Source: Collinsella aerofaciens | GTDB taxonomy: Bacteria; Actinomycetota; Coriobacteriia; Coriobacteriales; Coriobacteriaceae | DNA length: 64,000 bases | NCBI RefSeq assembly: GCF_002736145.1 | Contig: NZ_CP024160.1 | Span: 1,674,001-1,738,000, forward strand | Direction of reading: 5' to 3' | Part shown: piece after piece, positions 29,393 to 58,390 of the stretch | How positions within the stretch are numbered: the first letter of the stretch is position 1 | Layout: every line of letters begins with the position of its first letter | The notes under the pieces: model-generated | Databases searched by the model: none | Told to the model about the DNA's origin: nothing | What the model saw: the letters and a program-made list of their open reading frames with translations, nothing else | Made by a program: the position numbers and the translations under genes

Positions 29393-29515
29393 ACCGGTCA
29401 GCGGCGCCCTGGCCTCCCACGGGCTGACCCCGCAGTACTCTCGGCGCGATGGGGCTTAGCTTCCGGGTTCGGAACGGGACCGGGCGTGCCCCCCATGCTC
29501 TGGCCGCTGACCGGT
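29393..29515 (-). rRNA. rrf: 5S ribosomal RNA, operon 1
   Basis: Recognised by the internal sequence GTTCCGAACCCGGAAGCTAA and GAGAGTACTGC on the minus strand, with the terminal stem GGTCAGCGGC/GCCGCTGACC. The exact ends are approximate because the stem extends several bases further. Confidence 0.88.
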
Positions 29516-29656
29516 GGGCGGCGCCCACCGTTACGGTGTCCGGTGTCTACTCACGTGCCCTGGGGGCCGCATGGCGCATAGGAAAGTATGACTCGGGGGC
29601 ATCCTCGTGCCCGGACCGCGCGCATGAGCGCTCAGTCCCGCGGGCCGCGAGGTGCG

Positions 29657-34537
<4,881 letters not shown>

Positions 34538-34843
34538 AAATGTATGGGCTTCGAGCCCGTCCGGTCCTCTCAGTTCATCGCTGATCGGTTCCGTTCGATT
34601 CATATGGTTTTAGTATAGGAAAAGGAATTTCTCGGGGCCGCCTCTCGGCGGCCTTGCGAAAAACAAATCCAAGTTAGACCATTTCAAATGGTTCGATGTC
34701 TGCCCGGATGCGACACTGAAGTAAGTGTCCATCCTCGCAGTATCCGGTTCTCAAGGTGCACGCCTGGCGGCTGGTCCGGTCCGACCGGGCCGCGCGGCAA
34801 GGAGATATATTGCCAGACCGGAGGGGCGCCGGGGGCGGGAATC
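34538..34843 (-). other. rRNA operon 1 leader shared with operon 2
   Basis: About 306 bases upstream of 16S, with no coding sequence, identical by eye to 42049-42354. It contains the CCTTGAGAACCGGATA element (34741-34756) and GC-rich stems. Identity with operon 2 stops abruptly at 34843, so the sequences further upstream, including any distal promoters, differ. I could not assign a -35/-10 pair with confidence. Confidence 0.65.
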
Positions 34844-34897
34844 TGGGCGTACACATTTCCTACACAGTTTGGGATTCTCAGCTGTATTTACCAGTAA

Positions 34898-34930
34898 TAA
34901 AGAGGGGACCTCGTTTCCGAGATCCCCTCC
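34898..34930 (-). terminator. Terminator of the phosphohexomutase gene
   Basis: GAGGGGACCTCG pairs with CGAGATCCCCTC around TTTC, followed by CTCTTTATT on the minus strand. Confidence 0.85.
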
Positions 34931-34963
34931 TCCGTCTATCTATAGAAATTGGCTTTCAAAGCC

Positions 34964-36658
34964 TTAGGCCAAGAGCTTGCGACCGGACTCCTCGATCGCG
35001 TCAAGTGCTGCATCAGCCTCGGCGGCATCCGCGCCCTTAGCGAAGATGTACAGCTTAATCTTGGGCTCGGTGCCAGAAGGACGGACGATACCCTTGTTGC
35101 CACCCTCGAGATCGAACTCAATGACATTAGCCTTCGGCAGGCCGTTCACGCAGGTGTTGTAATCCACGACGGCCTCAATCTTGGACCCAGCAAGCTCCGC
35201 AGGCGGGTTCTCGCGCAGACCGGCCATGATGCCGGCCATCTTTGCCGCACCCTCAGCACCCGGATAGCTCAGCGAAATCGTCTTATTGTGGTAGTAGCCA
35301 TACTTCTCGTACAGCTCGTGCATCGCGTCGGCGAGGTTCTTACCCTGCAGCTTGTAATACTGAGCCATCTGGCAAATCAGCAGCGAAGTGCTCACAGCGT
35401 CCTTGTCGCGCACGTGGTCGCCAGCCAGATAGCCGTAGCTCTCCTCGAAACCGAAGACAAAGCGATCGACCTCGCCAGCATCGGAAAGAGAAGTAATGAT
35501 GTCGCCGATGTACTTGAAGCCCGTCAGGCAGCGGCGGAGCTCAAAACCGTACTCGTCGGCCAGAGCGTCAACCATGGCGGAAGAAACGATAGTAGTAACG
35601 GCAACCTTCTTAGTAAGGTCCTCACCGCGGGCAGCACGGGTCTTGCAGATATAGTCGAGCAGCAGAACGCCCATCTCATTGCCAGTCAGCAGCAGATAGT
35701 CATCGCCATTCTTAACGGCAACGCCAACACGGTCGGCGTCGGGATCGGTTGCAAGCAGCAAATCAGGGTGAACCTGCTCACAGAGATCGATACCCTTCTG
35801 CATGGCCTGACGGATCTCGGGGTTAGGATACGGGCAGGTCGGGAAATCGCCGTTAGGCTCCTTCTGCTCGGGAACAACCGTGACATCGGTGATGCCAGCG
35901 CGCTCGAGAACCGTCGTGACGGGAATGAGGCCGGTGCCGTTGAGCGGAGTGTAGACGAGCTTAAGCGGAGCGCCAGCGATCTCCTCGGCAGAAAGGTTAG
36001 TCACGCCGCGGGCGAGAACGGCGTCGTAATAGCGCTCGAGGCACGAGTCATCGATCCATTTGACCAGACCCTGCTCAAGAGCCTCATCGAAGTCCATGGA
36101 CTTCACGCCGGTGAACGTATCGGTCTCGGCGATAGCCTTAGAAATTGCATCGGCGGCCTCGCTGGTGATCTGGCAGCCGTCGGGGCCATAGGCCTTATAG
36201 CCGTTATAAGGAGCCGGATTATGACTAGCGGTCATGCAAATGCCACCGGAGCACTTAAGGTCGCGGACGGCCCAGGAGAGCGTCGGCACAGGAGAAATCT
36301 TGGGATACACGAGGGCAGTCACGCCGTTTGCTGCAAGAATGGCAGCCGTCGTCTTGACGAACAGCTCACCTTTATTGCGGCTATCGCGAGCGATGGCGAC
36401 CGTCGGATGCTCAAAGGTCGCATTGAGGTAGTCAGCGAATCCCTGGGTCGCACGACCGACCGTATAGATATTCATACGGTTAGTGCCCGCACCGATAGTG
36501 CCGCGAAGGCCGGCAGTACCGAAGGCGAGATCCTGGAAGAAAGCGTCGGTGATGGCGTCCTCATCACCCTGCTCCTTCATCGTGTTGAGCTCAGCGAGGA
36601 GCTCCTCGTCCTTGACATTGGCAATCCAAGTATCAAGCAGCTCATGAACATCTGCCAT
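34964..36658 (-). CDS. Phosphoglucomutase/phosphomannomutase family phospho-sugar mutase
   Basis: 564 residues from ATG 36658, preceded by GGAAGGA. It interconverts hexose 1- and 6-phosphates through a phosphoserine. The catalytic loop TASHNPAPYNGYK holds Ser145; the metal loop DPDADRVG, the sugar-binding GFEESYGYL and the phosphate-binding RPSGTEPKIKLY are intact. Length and the FGTAGLRG N-terminal motif fit the PgcA-type alpha-phosphoglucomutase group. It is a single gene enclosed between two identical rRNA operons on the same strand. Confidence 0.93.
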   Translation of the reverse strand: MADVHELLDTWIANVKDEELLAELNTMKEQGDEDAITDAFFQDLAFGTAGLRGTIGAGTNRMNIYTVGRATQGFADYLNATFEHPTVAIARDSRNKGELFVKTTAAILAANGVTALVYPKISPVPTLSWAVRDLKCSGGICMTASHNPAPYNGYKAYGPDGCQITSEAADAISKAIAETDTFTGVKSMDFDEALEQGLVKWIDDSCLERYYDAVLARGVTNLSAEEIAGAPLKLVYTPLNGTGLIPVTTVLERAGITDVTVVPEQKEPNGDFPTCPYPNPEIRQAMQKGIDLCEQVHPDLLLATDPDADRVGVAVKNGDDYLLLTGNEMGVLLLDYICKTRAARGEDLTKKVAVTTIVSSAMVDALADEYGFELRRCLTGFKYIGDIITSLSDAGEVDRFVFGFEESYGYLAGDHVRDKDAVSTSLLICQMAQYYKLQGKNLADAMHELYEKYGYYHNKTISLSYPGAEGAAKMAGIMAGLRENPPAELAGSKIEAVVDYNTCVNGLPKANVIEFDLEGGNKGIVRPSGTEPKIKLYIFAKGADAAEADAALDAIEESGRKLLA

Positions 36659-36840
36659 GTGAGTCCTTCCGTCACAATCAATAAAACGACCCGTGTAAAA
36701 ACAGGACAAGCGCAGCAGTGCGCTAAAGCAAATATTAGTCCATTGAGAACAGAGAACCGGCCAAAGAACGGTGAACGTCTATATTCAGCGGTGGATGATT
36801 AAATTGATTTAATTGCATAAGGAATGTTGCCCGTAAACGC

Positions 36841-36872
36841 AAAAAAGGGGGAGGCCGCGAGGCCTCCCCCTT
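36841..36872 (-). terminator. Terminator of rRNA operon 2
   Basis: Identical stem to 29330-29361, with the same T run on the minus strand. Confidence 0.9.
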
Positions 36873-36903
36873 CTCAGTTCAAGCGTACGGCTCGGTGCCG
36901 TCC

Positions 36904-37026
36904 ACCGGTCAGCGGCGCCCTGGCCTCCCACGGGCTGACCCCGCAGTACTCTCGGCGCGATGGGGCTTAGCTTCCGGGTTCGGAACGGGACCGGGCGTGC
37001 CCCCCATGCTCTGGCCGCTGACCGGT
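36904..37026 (-). rRNA. rrf: 5S ribosomal RNA, operon 2
   Basis: Same sequence as 29393-29515, displaced by 7511 bases; ends approximate. Confidence 0.88.
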
Positions 37027-37167
37027 GGGCGGCGCCCACCGTTACGGTGTCCGGTGTCTACTCACGTGCCCTGGGGGCCGCATGGCGCATAGGAAAGTAT
37101 GACTCGGGGGCATCCTCGTGCCCGGACCGCGCGCATGAGCGCTCAGTCCCGCGGGCCGCGAGGTGCG

Positions 37168-42048
<4,881 letters not shown>

Positions 42049-42578
42049 AAATGTATGGGCTTCGAGCCCGTCCGGTCCTCTCAGTTCATCGCTGATCGGT
42101 TCCGTTCGATTCATATGGTTTTAGTATAGGAAAAGGAATTTCTCGGGGCCGCCTCTCGGCGGCCTTGCGAAAAACAAATCCAAGTTAGACCATTTCAAAT
42201 GGTTCGATGTCTGCCCGGATGCGACACTGAAGTAAGTGTCCATCCTCGCAGTATCCGGTTCTCAAGGTGCACGCCTGGCGGCTGGTCCGGTCCGACCGGG
42301 CCGCGCGGCAAGGAGATATATTGCCAGACCGGAGGGGCGCCGGGGGCGGGAATCGCGCACTCCATATTTTGTTCACAAATGAATAGGTCCCTCAGTCGCA
42401 TCACTGAGGTTAAAACTGAAGCATTGGCTTCTGATATTGGCGATGACCAGCTGGTTTATAGGTGTTAAGGCATCGGTCATCTCTGGAGCGCCACTTTACT
42501 CCAAAAGCATCAGCTATTTGTTTCCCGTCGGTAAAAGGCAGGTTTTGTTCGCCAAGCGTTGTTATATATAGAGAAGTT
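42049..42578. other. rRNA operon 2 leader and unique upstream region
   Basis: Up to 42354 this is the same leader as operon 1. From 42355 the sequence is unique. It has an AT-rich stretch (CATATTTTGTTCACAAATG) that may hold the operon 2 promoter and a small hairpin CCTCAGT/ACTGAGG near 42392-42412. No coding sequence is supported. Confidence 0.55.
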
Positions 42579-42592
42579 CGGGTTCGAACCCG
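42579..42592. repeat. T-arm-like palindrome, outer copy
   Basis: CGGGTTCGAACCCG, the form of a tRNA T arm, without the rest of a tRNA around it. It sits 13 bases beyond the hairpin at 42605-42637, as the similar palindrome at 42756 sits beyond the tRNA-Lys terminator. Confidence 0.6.
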
Positions 42593-42604
42593 TGTCGCGG
42601 CAAC

Positions 42605-42637
42605 AAAAAGCGGCCGGCATCCGCCAGTCGCTTTTTT
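42605..42637 (-). terminator. Terminator-like hairpin of the duplicated tRNA-Lys module
   Basis: On the minus strand GCGACTGGC pairs (with G-U pairs) with GCCGGCCGC, followed by TTTTT. It is the counterpart of 42781-42810 at an offset of about 178 bases. Confidence 0.7.
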
Positions 42638-42644
42638 AGTCTAT

Positions 42645-42664
42645 GGTGGGCCGTCAGTGGTTCA
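42645..42664 (-). repeat. Copy of the tRNA-Lys 3' end
   Basis: GGTGGGCCGTCAGTGGTTCA matches the 3' end of tRNA-Lys (42824-42843) except for two bases. It is the acceptor stem plus half the T arm only, so not a functional tRNA. Confidence 0.8.
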
Positions 42665-42755
42665 GCCTGCTCCGCAGGCGGCCGCTGCGGCGCTTTCGCG
42701 CCTTGCGCGCTGCGCTGGCAAACGCTCACGCGTTTACTCAGCTCCGCGCCCCGAC

Positions 42756-42767
42756 GGGTTCGAACCC
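42756..42767. repeat. T-arm-like palindrome, inner copy
   Basis: GGGTTCGAACCC, beyond the tRNA-Lys terminator. Next to it on the displayed strand lie AAACGC/GCGTTT stem sequences that recur beside tRNA-Gly. Confidence 0.6.
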
Positions 42768-42780
42768 ATGAAAGGGCGAC

Positions 42781-42810
42781 AAAAAAGACGGCCAACCGAA
42801 GTTAACCGTC
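42781..42810 (-). terminator. Terminator of tRNA-Lys
   Basis: On the minus strand GACGGTTAAC pairs with GTTGGCCGTC (two G-U pairs) around TTCG, followed by six Ts. Confidence 0.85.
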
Positions 42811-42825
42811 TCAACAATCTTTGGG

Positions 42826-42898
42826 TGGGCCGTCAGGGGTTCGAACCCTGGACCTTGGGATTAAAAGTCCCCTGCTCTGCCAGCTGAGCTAACGGCCC
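42826..42898 (-). tRNA. tRNA-Lys (anticodon UUU)
   Basis: On the minus strand the acceptor stem GGGCCGT/ACGGCCC, a D arm GCTCAGCTGGCAGAGC, an anticodon loop CTTTTAA giving UUU, and a T arm CAGGGTTCGAACCCTG fold into a normal cloverleaf. CCA is not encoded (CCC follows the discriminator A). Confidence 0.95.
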
Positions 42899-54133: not shown

Positions 54134-54451
54134 TGGAGCGGGCAACGGGACGTCCGCGTATTTGCTTCGCAAATCCGCACCGGCTGCGATCGATCTCCTC
54201 GGATTCACGGAGACGATGGGGAAGACTTTGTTGAATTGGCCGTCCCAAGGTCTCCCGCGCTCGATGGAGCGGGCAACGGGACGTCTGCGTATTTGCTTCG
54301 CAAATCCGCACCGGCTGCGGTCGATCTCCTCGGATTCACGGAGACGATGGGGAAGACTTTGTTGAATTGGCCGTCCCAAGGTCTCCCGCGCTCGATGGAG
54401 CGGGCAACGGGACGTCCGCGTATTTGCTTCGCAAATCCGCACCGGCTGCGG
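54134..54451 (-). repeat. 131-bp tandem repeats beginning with the tRNA-Gly 3' end
   Basis: Two full units (54134-54264 and 54265-54395) differ at only two positions. A third, partial unit runs from 54396 to about 54451. Each unit begins with TGGAGCGGGCAACGGGAC, identical to the 3' end of tRNA-Gly at 54587-54604 (CCA, discriminator, acceptor strand and T-arm half). The rest of the unit has stems such as TTTGCTTCGCAAA but no gene. Confidence 0.93.
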
Positions 54452-54518
54452 TCGCCTATCGGCGACCTTGCCTGCTCGCTATAAACGCTTCGCGTTTATT
54501 TAACGCTCGCACCCTGTC

Positions 54519-54533
54519 GGGTTCGAGTCCCGG
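54519..54533. repeat. T-arm-like sequence beside tRNA-Gly
   Basis: CGGGTTCGAGTCCCG, the form of a tRNA T arm without a tRNA. It lies beyond the tRNA-Gly terminator, as the similar palindrome does beyond the tRNA-Lys terminator. Confidence 0.6.
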
Positions 54534-54543
54534 CACTTTATTG

Positions 54544-54577
54544 AAAAAGGCACGGTAGCGAAACGTTACCGTGCCTG
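54544..54577 (-). terminator. Terminator of tRNA-Gly
   Basis: AAGGCACGGTA pairs with TACCGTGCCT around a short loop; TTTTTC follows on the minus strand. Confidence 0.88.
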
Positions 54578-54586
54578 AAATTCGAA

Positions 54587-54661
54587 TGGAGCGGGCAACG
54601 GGACTCGAACCCGCGAGTGTCAGCTTGGGAAGCTGATGCCTTACCACTTGGCGATGCCCGC
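54587..54661 (-). tRNA. tRNA-Gly (anticodon CCC)
   Basis: On the minus strand GCGGGCA/TGCCCGC acceptor stem, anticodon stem-loop TCAGC-TTCCCAA-GCTGA giving CCC, T arm CGGGTTCGAGTCCCG. The discriminator T is followed by an encoded CCA. Confidence 0.95.
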
Positions 54662-54958: not shown

Positions 54959-57900
54959 ATGTCCAACGCACCCACGCACTCTGTCCACAGCGCAATCGCA
55001 ACAGGTCCGCTGCTCCTGCTCCTCTTCCTGCTGTTCGGCTGCCTAGCACCGGGAGCCGCATTTGCCGTCGATGGCTACGACCAGCTCGGCTTCCGTACTA
55101 TTAGCGATGATTGTGGGCCCTTCTTCATCGGCAAATATGAAGCTCAAGACGCCTCGATTGCCTACTGCATGAACCAGGAACGCCCCGGGCCCACCAAGCC
55201 GGGCGGCCCATGGCTCAACTTTGATCAAGGCTGGGTGTGGCTCGACGACGAGTTCGCGGCAATCGTTTGTCACGGATATCCTACCGCCACGTCGTTTGGC
55301 GGTTACCATCTTTCACCCGATCGCGCCCGCGCCGCCACCCAGCTTGCCGTATGGATGCTCAACGGCACTACCCATGTCGACGGCACCTACTCCTACACGA
55401 CCGCTCAGGGCAAAACCAAGAGTGGGCACTTTACCGCCGACAATGAAGTCGTGGCGGCTGCGCGGTGGCTCCACGACAGCGCAAAATCAGGAAGCATCAA
55501 AGCCGCTCCGCACCGCGCGCGGCGCTATATAGGAACCGTATCGGGCGGCAGCAAACGTCAAGACATGCTCTATGTACTGCCGGCGGTCTCTGTTTCCTTC
55601 CAAAAGCAGTCTGCAAACGCTGCCATTACCAGCGGAAACAATACTTATCAGTTTGACGGGGCAACATTCGATGTTTTTGAGAGCGCCAGCGGCGCGCGTG
55701 TCGGCACCGTCCAGATGGACAGCAACGGTCGAGCGCGGGCAACACTCCTACCCAACACGGCATACTACCTAGTTGAAACAACAGCGCCAGCTGGTTATAT
55801 CCCCCTGCACGATCGCATTACCTTTACCACGACGGATAACGGCGGATACGTCACCATTGATGAACAACCCGGCACCATTACCTTGCGCATTGTAAAGCTC
55901 GACGCCGCAACGAATGCAGGCCCCCAAGTTGGGGCTTCGCTCGCAGGAGCAGAATTCGTGTGCGTATCGCAATCAACCCCTGGATGGACACAAACTCTCA
56001 GGACCGATGAAAGCGGTCGAGCTACCCTCACCGATGTCCCCCTGGGAACCTTTACCATCTATGAATCGAAGGCGCCCGAGGGCTATTTGCCCTCCGGTGA
56101 CAGTTGGTCTTACACCGTTGGAGCCGACCAACTCGGCGATTCAGGCGTGGTCGAGATCGAATCTCGCGTTTCCGATATCCCTATTGCGTTTGACCTTGAG
56201 ATTTCCAAATTCAAGGACTACGGCAATAGCGATCAATCCGGCCTGGAGCAGCCGGCAGGAGATGTTGTCTTTGAGGTTGTCAGTAACAGCTCTCAGCAGG
56301 TTGTTGGCACACTGACTACAAACATCTATGGCTTTGCCTCCACCAAAGACCAGCCCGAAGCATGGTTCGGCACAGGCAAGCGACCAGCCGGTGTCCACGG
56401 AGCCGTCCCATACGACCGCGCCGGCTACACGGTTCGTGAGGTTCCGGAAACCGTCCCCGAGGGTTTTAAACGTGCGGGGGAATGGACCGTCGAGGCCAAT
56501 CAGATTTCCGACGGCGCCGAGCTTCAATATATCGTGGACAACCACGCTCTGTCGACGCATCTCCAGATTGTAAAACGCGATGCCCAAACAGGCGCTTCTG
56601 TTCCCCTAGCCGGATTCACCTTCCAACTCCTCGACAGCAATCACAAACCTGTCTCACAAACATGCTGGTATCCAGCACATAACGTAATGGACACCTTTAC
56701 GACTGACGCGACCGGCACCGTCACACTGCCCGAATCGCTCGTGCCGGGCACCTATTATGTACGCGAAACCTCGGCCAAAGAGCCCTATCTTGTCGGCGGA
56801 GAGATCGAGGTAAACATACCCGCCGATATAAACCTAACGCCCGTTGCAATCGTCTCGTATTATGACCACGCCGCGACCGGAAACATCAGGATCGTTAAAA
56901 CCGATGCCGTAGACGGCAGCAGCCTCGCGGGCGCCATCTTTGAGATCCGTGCCTCAGGTGATATCGTGCGCCCCGACGGTAGCATTGCCGCGCTCGACGG
57001 TGAGACTGTCGCTACCGTCACGACGGATGAAACTGGAGAAGCACGCGCGGACGACCTCCCGCTGGGATCTGGCACCGCACGCTACGAGGTTGTCGAGACT
57101 CAAGCGCCGACCGGCTTCTTACTCGACCGGACGCACCATATCGTCGACCTTACCTATGCCGACCAGAAAACACCCGTTGTGGAAGCACGGCTTAACGTAT
57201 CCGACGATTACACCAAGGTTGATATCTCCAAGGTCGATGCAAGCGGAGAGCAGGAAGTGAAAGGCGCACAGCTCACCTTATATGGTCCCGATAAAACCGA
57301 AATAGACTCCTGGACCTCATCCGACAAGCCGCACCGCATCGAACATCTTGCACCCGGCACTTACTCGTTGCGCGAAACGATGTCTCCGCGGACCTATGAC
57401 CTTGCCGAGGAGATAGCGTTTGAAATAAAGGATACGGGAGAAGTCCAATCCGTCGCGATGAAGGATGCGCCCATCGAGATCAAAGGACAGGTCGACAAGC
57501 GTCAGGAACTTGTCCAACCTATCGGGAAGGGTCTGTTGGCTAACGGCGATGGAAAAAACCGCGCCGCGATGCAAACCAATACGGATGGGCTTTTCTCCTA
57601 TACCATCGATGCTCGAAACGATTCCGCTACCTGGGTTGATGAGTTTACGATTACCGATGATCTTGAGTGCGCCAAAGACGGTACGGCGAGATTCGTCTCA
57701 ATCGAAACCCCCGTCGCCATCGGCGACCTCAACGGTCTGTGCAACGTGTGGTATCGCACGACGCCGTTGGACTCGACAGACGTCGATGAGCCGGCAAACG
57801 CGACGCTTGACGATGGGCACGAAAATCCTTGGCTTGAGTCCGACGAAGTAAAAGAGAGTCTGGGTGAAGATTGCCGCCTCGTCGATTACGACGGCTGGCA

Positions 57901-58390
57901 CCTCTGGAAGGCGGATGTCTCGACCACGGAATCCGCCACACTCGAGGCGAAAGAACTCGACCTTGCATCCAATACCGTCGTAACGGGCATTCGCATTGAA
58001 TACGGTGCGGTAGCCGCCGACTTTACGACTCGAAGCGATACGGATTCTTGGACCCGTGATGATCTCAAAGATGAGCACGACGACCTTGACGATGCCAAAG
58101 CAATCCTTGGCACAGATGCTTGGGGCGCAGTCGTGCACATGCAGGCAACGTCGGCTTATACACCCCAAACTGCACTCACCAACAGCGCACGCGTCGATCT
58201 TTGCCGCAACGGCGGCGGCGATAAACTTGAGTCACATGACGAGGACCGTGTCATTCAACGCTGTACCCTACCGCAGGACCTACCGGCAACAGGATCAGCT
58301 CCCATCGCCGCTTGCATCACCGCGCTCCTGACCTCGGGTGCCGCAGCCCTATGGTTCGCTCGCCTTAGGTCAATCCCAAAGAAGCGCTAG
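54959..58390 (+). CDS. LPXTG cell-wall-anchored thioester/CnaB adhesin
   Basis: 1143 residues, AAGGAG site. A signal peptide (1-36) is followed by a thioester domain (about 38-190): Cys70 in SIAYC and Gln128 in ATQLAVW fit the internal Cys-Gln thioester that binds host proteins covalently. Then come about six CnaB/SpaA-like beta domains (about 205-830) with KxD segments (IVKLDA, IVKRDA, IVKTDA, ISKVDA) and YxxxE-type partners (YLVETTAPAGY, EVVETQAPTGF), consistent with isopeptide bonds. A longer domain (835-1080) follows. The sortase signal LPATG (1108-1112), a hydrophobic helix and a basic tail end the protein. No sortase is in the window. Receptor unknown. Confidence 0.9.
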   Translation: MSNAPTHSVHSAIATGPLLLLLFLLFGCLAPGAAFAVDGYDQLGFRTISDDCGPFFIGKYEAQDASIAYCMNQERPGPTKPGGPWLNFDQGWVWLDDEFAAIVCHGYPTATSFGGYHLSPDRARAATQLAVWMLNGTTHVDGTYSYTTAQGKTKSGHFTADNEVVAAARWLHDSAKSGSIKAAPHRARRYIGTVSGGSKRQDMLYVLPAVSVSFQKQSANAAITSGNNTYQFDGATFDVFESASGARVGTVQMDSNGRARATLLPNTAYYLVETTAPAGYIPLHDRITFTTTDNGGYVTIDEQPGTITLRIVKLDAATNAGPQVGASLAGAEFVCVSQSTPGWTQTLRTDESGRATLTDVPLGTFTIYESKAPEGYLPSGDSWSYTVGADQLGDSGVVEIESRVSDIPIAFDLEISKFKDYGNSDQSGLEQPAGDVVFEVVSNSSQQVVGTLTTNIYGFASTKDQPEAWFGTGKRPAGVHGAVPYDRAGYTVREVPETVPEGFKRAGEWTVEANQISDGAELQYIVDNHALSTHLQIVKRDAQTGASVPLAGFTFQLLDSNHKPVSQTCWYPAHNVMDTFTTDATGTVTLPESLVPGTYYVRETSAKEPYLVGGEIEVNIPADINLTPVAIVSYYDHAATGNIRIVKTDAVDGSSLAGAIFEIRASGDIVRPDGSIAALDGETVATVTTDETGEARADDLPLGSGTARYEVVETQAPTGFLLDRTHHIVDLTYADQKTPVVEARLNVSDDYTKVDISKVDASGEQEVKGAQLTLYGPDKTEIDSWTSSDKPHRIEHLAPGTYSLRETMSPRTYDLAEEIAFEIKDTGEVQSVAMKDAPIEIKGQVDKRQELVQPIGKGLLANGDGKNRAAMQTNTDGLFSYTIDARNDSATWVDEFTITDDLECAKDGTARFVSIETPVAIGDLNGLCNVWYRTTPLDSTDVDEPANATLDDGHENPWLESDEVKESLGEDCRLVDYDGWHLWKADVSTTESATLEAKELDLASNTVVTGIRIEYGAVAADFTTRSDTDSWTRDDLKDEHDDLDDAKAILGTDAWGAVVHMQATSAYTPQTALTNSARVDLCRNGGGDKLESHDEDRVIQRCTLPQDLPATGSAPIAACITALLTSGAAALWFARLRSIPKKR

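Follow-up and report, generated by a model that had tools for sequence, protein, structure and literature searches.

In the window, a 64,000-nucleotide stretch of Collinsella aerofaciens DNA (contig NZ_CP024160.1, positions 1,674,001 to 1,738,000), two tRNA genes on the minus strand, for tRNA-Gly(ccc) and tRNA-Lys(ttt), are followed by the same series of features (Table 1). Reading of both loci bears out the common downstream order proposed in the initial annotation: after each tRNA come a terminator with its T run, an antisense T-arm, a hairpin with an AAACGC..GCGTTT stem, a pair of GC-rich hairpins and, last, a duplicate of the 3' end of that tRNA. The sequence that had been described as a T-arm-like palindrome is present, though what it represents is the T-arm of that same tRNA in reverse complement. 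Similarly the interval given for the Gly element, 54396-54661, does hold the first unit, but the array continues with two more units at 54134-54395. In these two, which have a 131-bp period, the last hairpin (P5) and the copied 3' end are retained, but the 5' half bears no relation to the usual core and varies between strains. Core-less antisense T-arms, such as that at 42578-42593, were seen behind several tRNAs, for instance tRNA-Ser(gct) (locus L044, 11843 onward), and may be remnants of units, or an intermediate state.

Table 1. Features of the tRNA-Gly and tRNA-Lys loci, in coordinates of the window.
Feature	Position	Strand	Evidence
tRNA-Gly(ccc), host gene of the array	54587..54661	-	ARAGORN, Rfam tRNA
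First intrinsic terminator (hairpin and T run), between tRNA-Gly and element	54542..54576	-	inverted repeat, sequence
5' arm, antisense to the tRNA-Gly T-arm (CCGGGACTCGAACCCG); 5' strand of closing stem P1	54518..54533	-	inverted repeat, sequence
Structured RNA core, Gly unit 1	54407..54532	-	covariance model R2, E = 1.1e-13
Hairpin P3 (AAACGC..GCGTTT stem, GAA loop), Gly unit 1	54474..54510	-	
Hairpin P4, Gly unit 1	54444..54472	-	
Hairpin P5 (GCGAAGC apex), Gly unit 1	54414..54442	-	
First direct copy of tRNA-Gly 3' end, T-loop position 59 to CCA; 3' strand of P1	54396..54413	-	
Array unit 2, 5' half of core replaced; ends with second tRNA-Gly 3' end copy (54265-54282)	54265..54395	-	
Array unit 3; ends with third tRNA-Gly 3' end copy (54134-54151)	54134..54264	-	
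tRNA-Lys(ttt), host gene of the second example	42824..42898	-	ARAGORN, Rfam tRNA
First terminator after tRNA-Lys	42781..42810	-	sequence
5' arm, antisense to the tRNA-Lys T-arm (CATGGGTTCGAACCCG)	42755..42770	-	inverted repeat, sequence
Structured RNA core, Lys unit	42650..42769	-	models R1 and R2, E = 5e-26 and 3e-21
Direct copy of tRNA-Lys 3' end, from the T-loop	42644..42663	-	sequence
Second terminator, after the copied tRNA-Lys 3' end	42608..42635	-	sequence
Second antisense T-arm without core (stub; lost or truncated unit)	42578..42593	-	inverted repeat, sequence

Two tandem rRNA operons with equal Rfam scores adjoin the tRNA-Lys gene (29396-42048). Divergent from the tRNA-Gly array lies a large gene (54959-58390) which, judged from its sequence only, would encode a surface protein with repeated Cna-B-like stretches and an LPATG-type end.

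The units are approximately 165-190 bp in length, uniform in size and without genes, and contain a folded RNA core of about 120 bases. Each comprises the 3' end of the host tRNA with a spacer or terminator, after which come the 5' arm, the hairpins from P2 to P5 and finally the copied 3' end, and one or a few such units stand in tandem at a locus. The 5' strand of the closing stem P1 is antisense to the T-arm of the host and its 3' strand is the copy of the host 3' end; nearly all of the units described here have hairpin P2 and the antisense T-loop. In the C. aerofaciens genome the copies are identical to the host 3' end at 17-18 of 18 positions and, among the 107 elements examined, 91 of the 95 copies that were placed start at T-loop positions 55-59. 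The 5' arm matches the T-arm of its own host at 14.2 of 17 positions, compared with at most 12.7 in 200 permutations of the tRNAs. In some members of other families (L385 and L395) the arm spans the whole acceptor including the complement of CCA.

A covariance model, R1, was built from seven units and enlarged to give R2; as the models are home-made their E-values should be taken as rough. In the whole C. aerofaciens genome, a single contig of 2.31 Mb with 57 tRNA matches, R2 gave 17 matches with E < 0.01 at 14 loci. All 17 are directly behind a tRNA or tmRNA gene, so the layout is not a product of chance. The initial annotation had asked whether a third tRNA would share the layout. It is found behind 13 tRNA species, Gly-tcc, Gly-gcc, Gly-ccc, Lys-ttt, Lys-ctt, Phe, Val-tac, Arg-acg, Leu-caa, Leu-taa, Gln-ttg, Glu-ttc and Ser-cga, as well as behind the tmRNA gene, where the arm is antisense to the T-arm of the tmRNA itself (L073, 1077-1630). 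Reading downstream of all the tRNA genes in the genome likewise gave the same order behind many of them, and the copied 3' end is often followed by a second copy of the tRNA's own terminator. The original observation was real and, if anything, understated, since the layout recurs throughout the genome.

Scanning of related genomes with the models, as had been suggested, gave hundreds of further units. R1 matched in 33 of 35 Collinsella genomes and, across the order, R2 matched in 104 of 297 genomes from 36 genera and several families, these counts being lower bounds because of the stricter filters used in the many-genome searches; tandem units are also easily missed, as they often fall at the contig ends of draft assemblies. 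The layout of the unit is unchanged in the matched families outside the Coriobacteriaceae. In a draw of 396 Actinomycetota, searched with R2 under Infernal's stricter filters, matches were confined to the Coriobacteriaceae.

A separate pattern scan gave matches in Collinsella, Enorma and Candidatus Limicola. In 100 of the Coriobacteriaceae matches a complete tRNA lies 74-95 nt upstream in the same orientation, and the remaining matches with an antisense arm are the second unit of an array, are near a contig end or come after a partial tRNA 3' end, which marks the right edge of an inserted mobile element. Matches that lack the antisense arm arose by chance and lie in unrelated bacteria or on a viral contig. 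Two pattern matches were on viral contigs, this chance match and a true unit that borders a mobile element, while a search of a phage collection gave matches to the tRNA-Gly gene only. At four loci (L179, L235, L249 and L277) mobile elements inserted in tRNA-Glu or tRNA-Lys part the tRNA from the repeat, and a partial tRNA 3' end is left immediately before the repeat.

Read from the tRNA strand, the core has an RNA fold. In an alignment of 96 distinct units 96.4% of the cells in consensus pairs contain standard pairs, and 331 two-sided changes were observed against 87 in shuffles. Kinship among the sequences inflates such covariation counts, but slid controls of the pairing, which retain this relatedness, were all far below the observed value. 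On the tRNA strand G.U occupies 63 cells and A.C only 7, the four-base loops of the form G...A are all GNRA with no GNYA, and 87 of 90 units fold better on this strand than on its complement. Taken together the covariation, the excess of G.U over A.C, the GNRA loops and the strand bias in folding point to selection on an RNA made in the direction of the tRNA. At two loci (L368 and L370), where a unit is flanked by tRNA-Leu and tRNA-Glu and no terminator intervenes, co-transcription is likely. Most units sit behind a strong terminator, so that for these we can only infer expression: transcription would be by read-through, with 3' processing by the tRNA enzymes. Considering the structure together with the literature and annotation for E. 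coli (PMC8144298), the RNA may be released from the tRNA precursor.

The presence and number of units vary between related genomes by whole units. This can be seen most simply at tRNA-Phe, where filled genomes equal empty ones plus exactly one 186-bp unit, which is bounded by a direct repeat of ~65 bp made up of the tRNA 3' end and the terminator. A loss through recombination between these repeats would look identical to a gain. At tRNA-Val the terminator types occur in several orders between strains, and their order therefore gives no relative age for the copies of the tRNA 3' end.

In a tree of 116 cores, which has few columns and many open forks, those of C. aerofaciens group by tRNA type. 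Deeper clades mix the types, one of 13 rows containing seven tRNA types with 98% support; the same tRNA occurs in several clades and several tRNAs in one clade. On this tree, with the same few columns and open forks, 43 changes of tRNA label are required, against the 20 that would be enough. Within single genomes the cores behind different tRNAs can be almost the same. In one (G082) the cores behind Ser-cga, Thr-tgt, Gly-ccc and Ser-tga share 98-100% identity over the part compared, and in another (G100) identity is 96-97% among those behind Leu-taa, Thr-cgt and Gly-tcc, with 3' copies that are each the host's own and spacers that are related but locus-specific. The 5' arm in G100 is the same at all three loci and fits Leu best, so that the Thr and Gly units bear a Leu arm and the fit of the arm is imperfect at some loci. 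The Ser-cga unit of G082 ends in a copy that matches the 3' end of Ser-gct in relatives and not that of its own host. Near-identical cores behind different tRNAs imply that cores pass between tRNA genes, either through insertion or through conversion between resident units. A search for a mobility enzyme found none; reverse transcriptases are present in 12 of 43 genomes of the genus. A reverse transcriptase was rejected as the resident mobiliser on account of its absence from the C. aerofaciens genome and from 31 of the 43.

The initial annotation had proposed one kind of element that inserts at tRNA 3' ends and regenerates them, and this is supported in part. A single kind of element associated with tRNA 3' ends has strong support from its occurrence at 13 tRNA species and the tmRNA, from the hundreds of units in related genomes, by breakpoints that are nearly always in the T-loop, by the presence/absence polymorphism and by the near-identical cores behind different tRNAs. 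The second half of the proposal, an insertion device of its own and regeneration of the tRNA 3' end by the inserted DNA, is conjectural; tandem duplication, conversion between units and loss by direct-repeat recombination explain part of the pattern. The units are very probably tRNA-linked repeats (TLRs, rtT type), in which a structured RNA core comes just after a tRNA or tmRNA gene. They share with TLRs their position immediately downstream of, and co-oriented with, a tRNA/rRNA-type gene, the 18-19 bp 3' copy, the tandem units and the closing stem. Such a family would duplicate the tRNA 3' end at the T-loop and leave the tRNA intact, would multiply in tandem and would lose units via recombination between the direct repeats. 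Occasionally a unit would reach a new tRNA gene, to which the arms would then become fitted, and the family may persist in this way as a harmless hitch-hiker on tRNA genes. It is a much more tentative suggestion, and one that we consider possible at best, that TLRs in general form a broad class of selfish mobile elements which encode an RNA and live on tRNA genes. Such elements would insert at the T-loop, spare the host gene by duplicating the tRNA 3' end, rely on tRNA processing for maturation and have their arms re-templated from each new host tRNA, possibly via an RNA or hairpin intermediate.

Other origins have to be set against this. Coincidence among features that are common downstream of tRNAs has next to no probability, for nothing speaks for it beyond the two original examples, and it is refuted by the tRNAs upstream of the pattern matches, the permutations of the arm fit, the covariation, the spread across the order and the 17 out of 17 genome matches. 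We think it rather unlikely that the units are ordinary small-RNA genes of the host, duplicated along with tRNA genes and inherited vertically without being mobile. The clustering of cores by tRNA type within C. aerofaciens would be expected of such genes and covariation does mean constraint, but near-identical cores stand behind unrelated tRNAs with the arms and 3' copies of their hosts, a single clade of cores comes from seven tRNA types, and the unit at tRNA-Phe is present in some genomes and missing from others.

Phages and ICEs that integrate into tRNA genes also make a second copy of the tRNA 3' end while leaving the tRNA whole, and they carry an integrase and other genes. The 3' end copies in the T-loop do look like att duplications, and the repeats could be scars of such elements, either att copies of a prophage or integrative plasmid or leftover or decoy att sites. 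Indeed a genuine integrative element of 5 kb that carries a tyrosine recombinase lies in tRNA-Gly(ccc) upstream of a tRNA-linked repeat in one genome (G010; L137, 600-5700), and mobile elements lie between tRNA and unit at three loci (L179, L235 and L249). The breakpoint of the G010 element is, however, at the anticodon whereas the repeats break in the T-loop, and units of below 200 bp that are uniform in size and gene-free, with a covarying RNA fold and a fitted antisense arm, speak against such a scar, which makes this origin improbable. Little more probable is an element acting at the DNA level only, in which a folded single strand, as in integron attC sites or REP-like hairpins, would be the substrate of a recombinase supplied in trans and acting at T-arms, the RNA being irrelevant. 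An attC site is likewise folded and needs the start of the next unit to complete its closing stem, and integron arrays grow by whole units; the units resemble this in their closing stem, whose 3' half belongs to the next unit, and in being gained and lost whole, and stable GNA loops would also suit a DNA hairpin. They differ from attC in having neither integrase nor cassette gene and in their location at the tRNA T-arm, and the constraints on the tRNA strand, in G.U against A.C and in GNRA against GNYA loops, are of the RNA type; no recombinase acting at T-arms was identified.

TLRs have been known in E. coli since 1978 (PMC8144298), those of K-12 being credited there to Egan and Landy 1978 and Rudd 1999. 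There are 22 of them at ten loci, the last 18-19 bp being the 3' end of the upstream gene, they have no known function and those behind rRNA operons are reached by read-through from the first terminator (PMC8144298). An early claim linking E. coli rtT to amino-acid starvation was withdrawn according to PMC8144298 and is still repeated in PMC4986893. Like the units described here, E. coli TLRs lie behind tRNA (or rRNA) genes with 1-5 units per locus, and TLRs and RtT share with them the closing stem of antisense 5' arm and 3' copy as well as the breakpoint. The 3' copies of E. coli TLRs start at T-loop position 58/59, those of the RtT units behind tRNA-Tyr at position 58; the Rfam RtT model (RF00391) closes with GgGaaGGAU/AUCCuuCcC, and the arms of the Lys (CGTGAAGGAT or CGTGTAGGAT) and Arg (CAGGGAGGAT) TLRs fit their own tRNAs. 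The lysQ (L422, 1654-1809) and lysV (L424, 3330-3485) units of K-12, with terminator, antisense T-arm and P2-like hairpin, resemble the Collinsella units in layout more closely than do the Tyr repeats.

The core sequence and fold of E. coli TLRs differ from those of the Collinsella units. RF00391 gave no match in the window or at eight element loci with E up to 5, and the units do not reach its gathering cut-off; conversely, R2 scored at best 6.4 bits at an RtT place and did not match the E. coli units. As the models fail to cross in either direction, common descent with the E. coli TLRs is a conjecture. Rfam searched at permissive thresholds contained no family that fits the units, and identity with the Collinsella-1 family (RF01700), named in PMC2864571, was rejected for want of a match to its model. 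Actinobacillus RtT RNAs, which adjoin tRNA genes, were seen on Northern blots and were described as upstream (PMC4986893), match the Rfam RtT model whereas the Collinsella units do not.

A search of the open literature gave no description of such units in Collinsella or its relatives. The kind is already known from E. coli, and the Collinsella set is therefore best regarded as a large, newly seen branch rather than a wholly new kind. With 17 model matches at 13 tRNA species and the tmRNA in one genome, compared with 22 TLRs at ten loci in E. coli, it provides a second dense and polymorphic set, spread across an order, which makes TLRs a comparative system instead of a curiosity. This set reveals the constrained parts, namely the RNA fold, the T-loop breakpoint and the arm fitted to the host, and it leads to a general definition of TLRs, a closing stem with an antisense arm, for which other bacteria can be searched. 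Unlike the E. coli TLRs, the Coriobacteriales set shows recent dispersal between tRNA genes, with filled and empty sites in close relatives.
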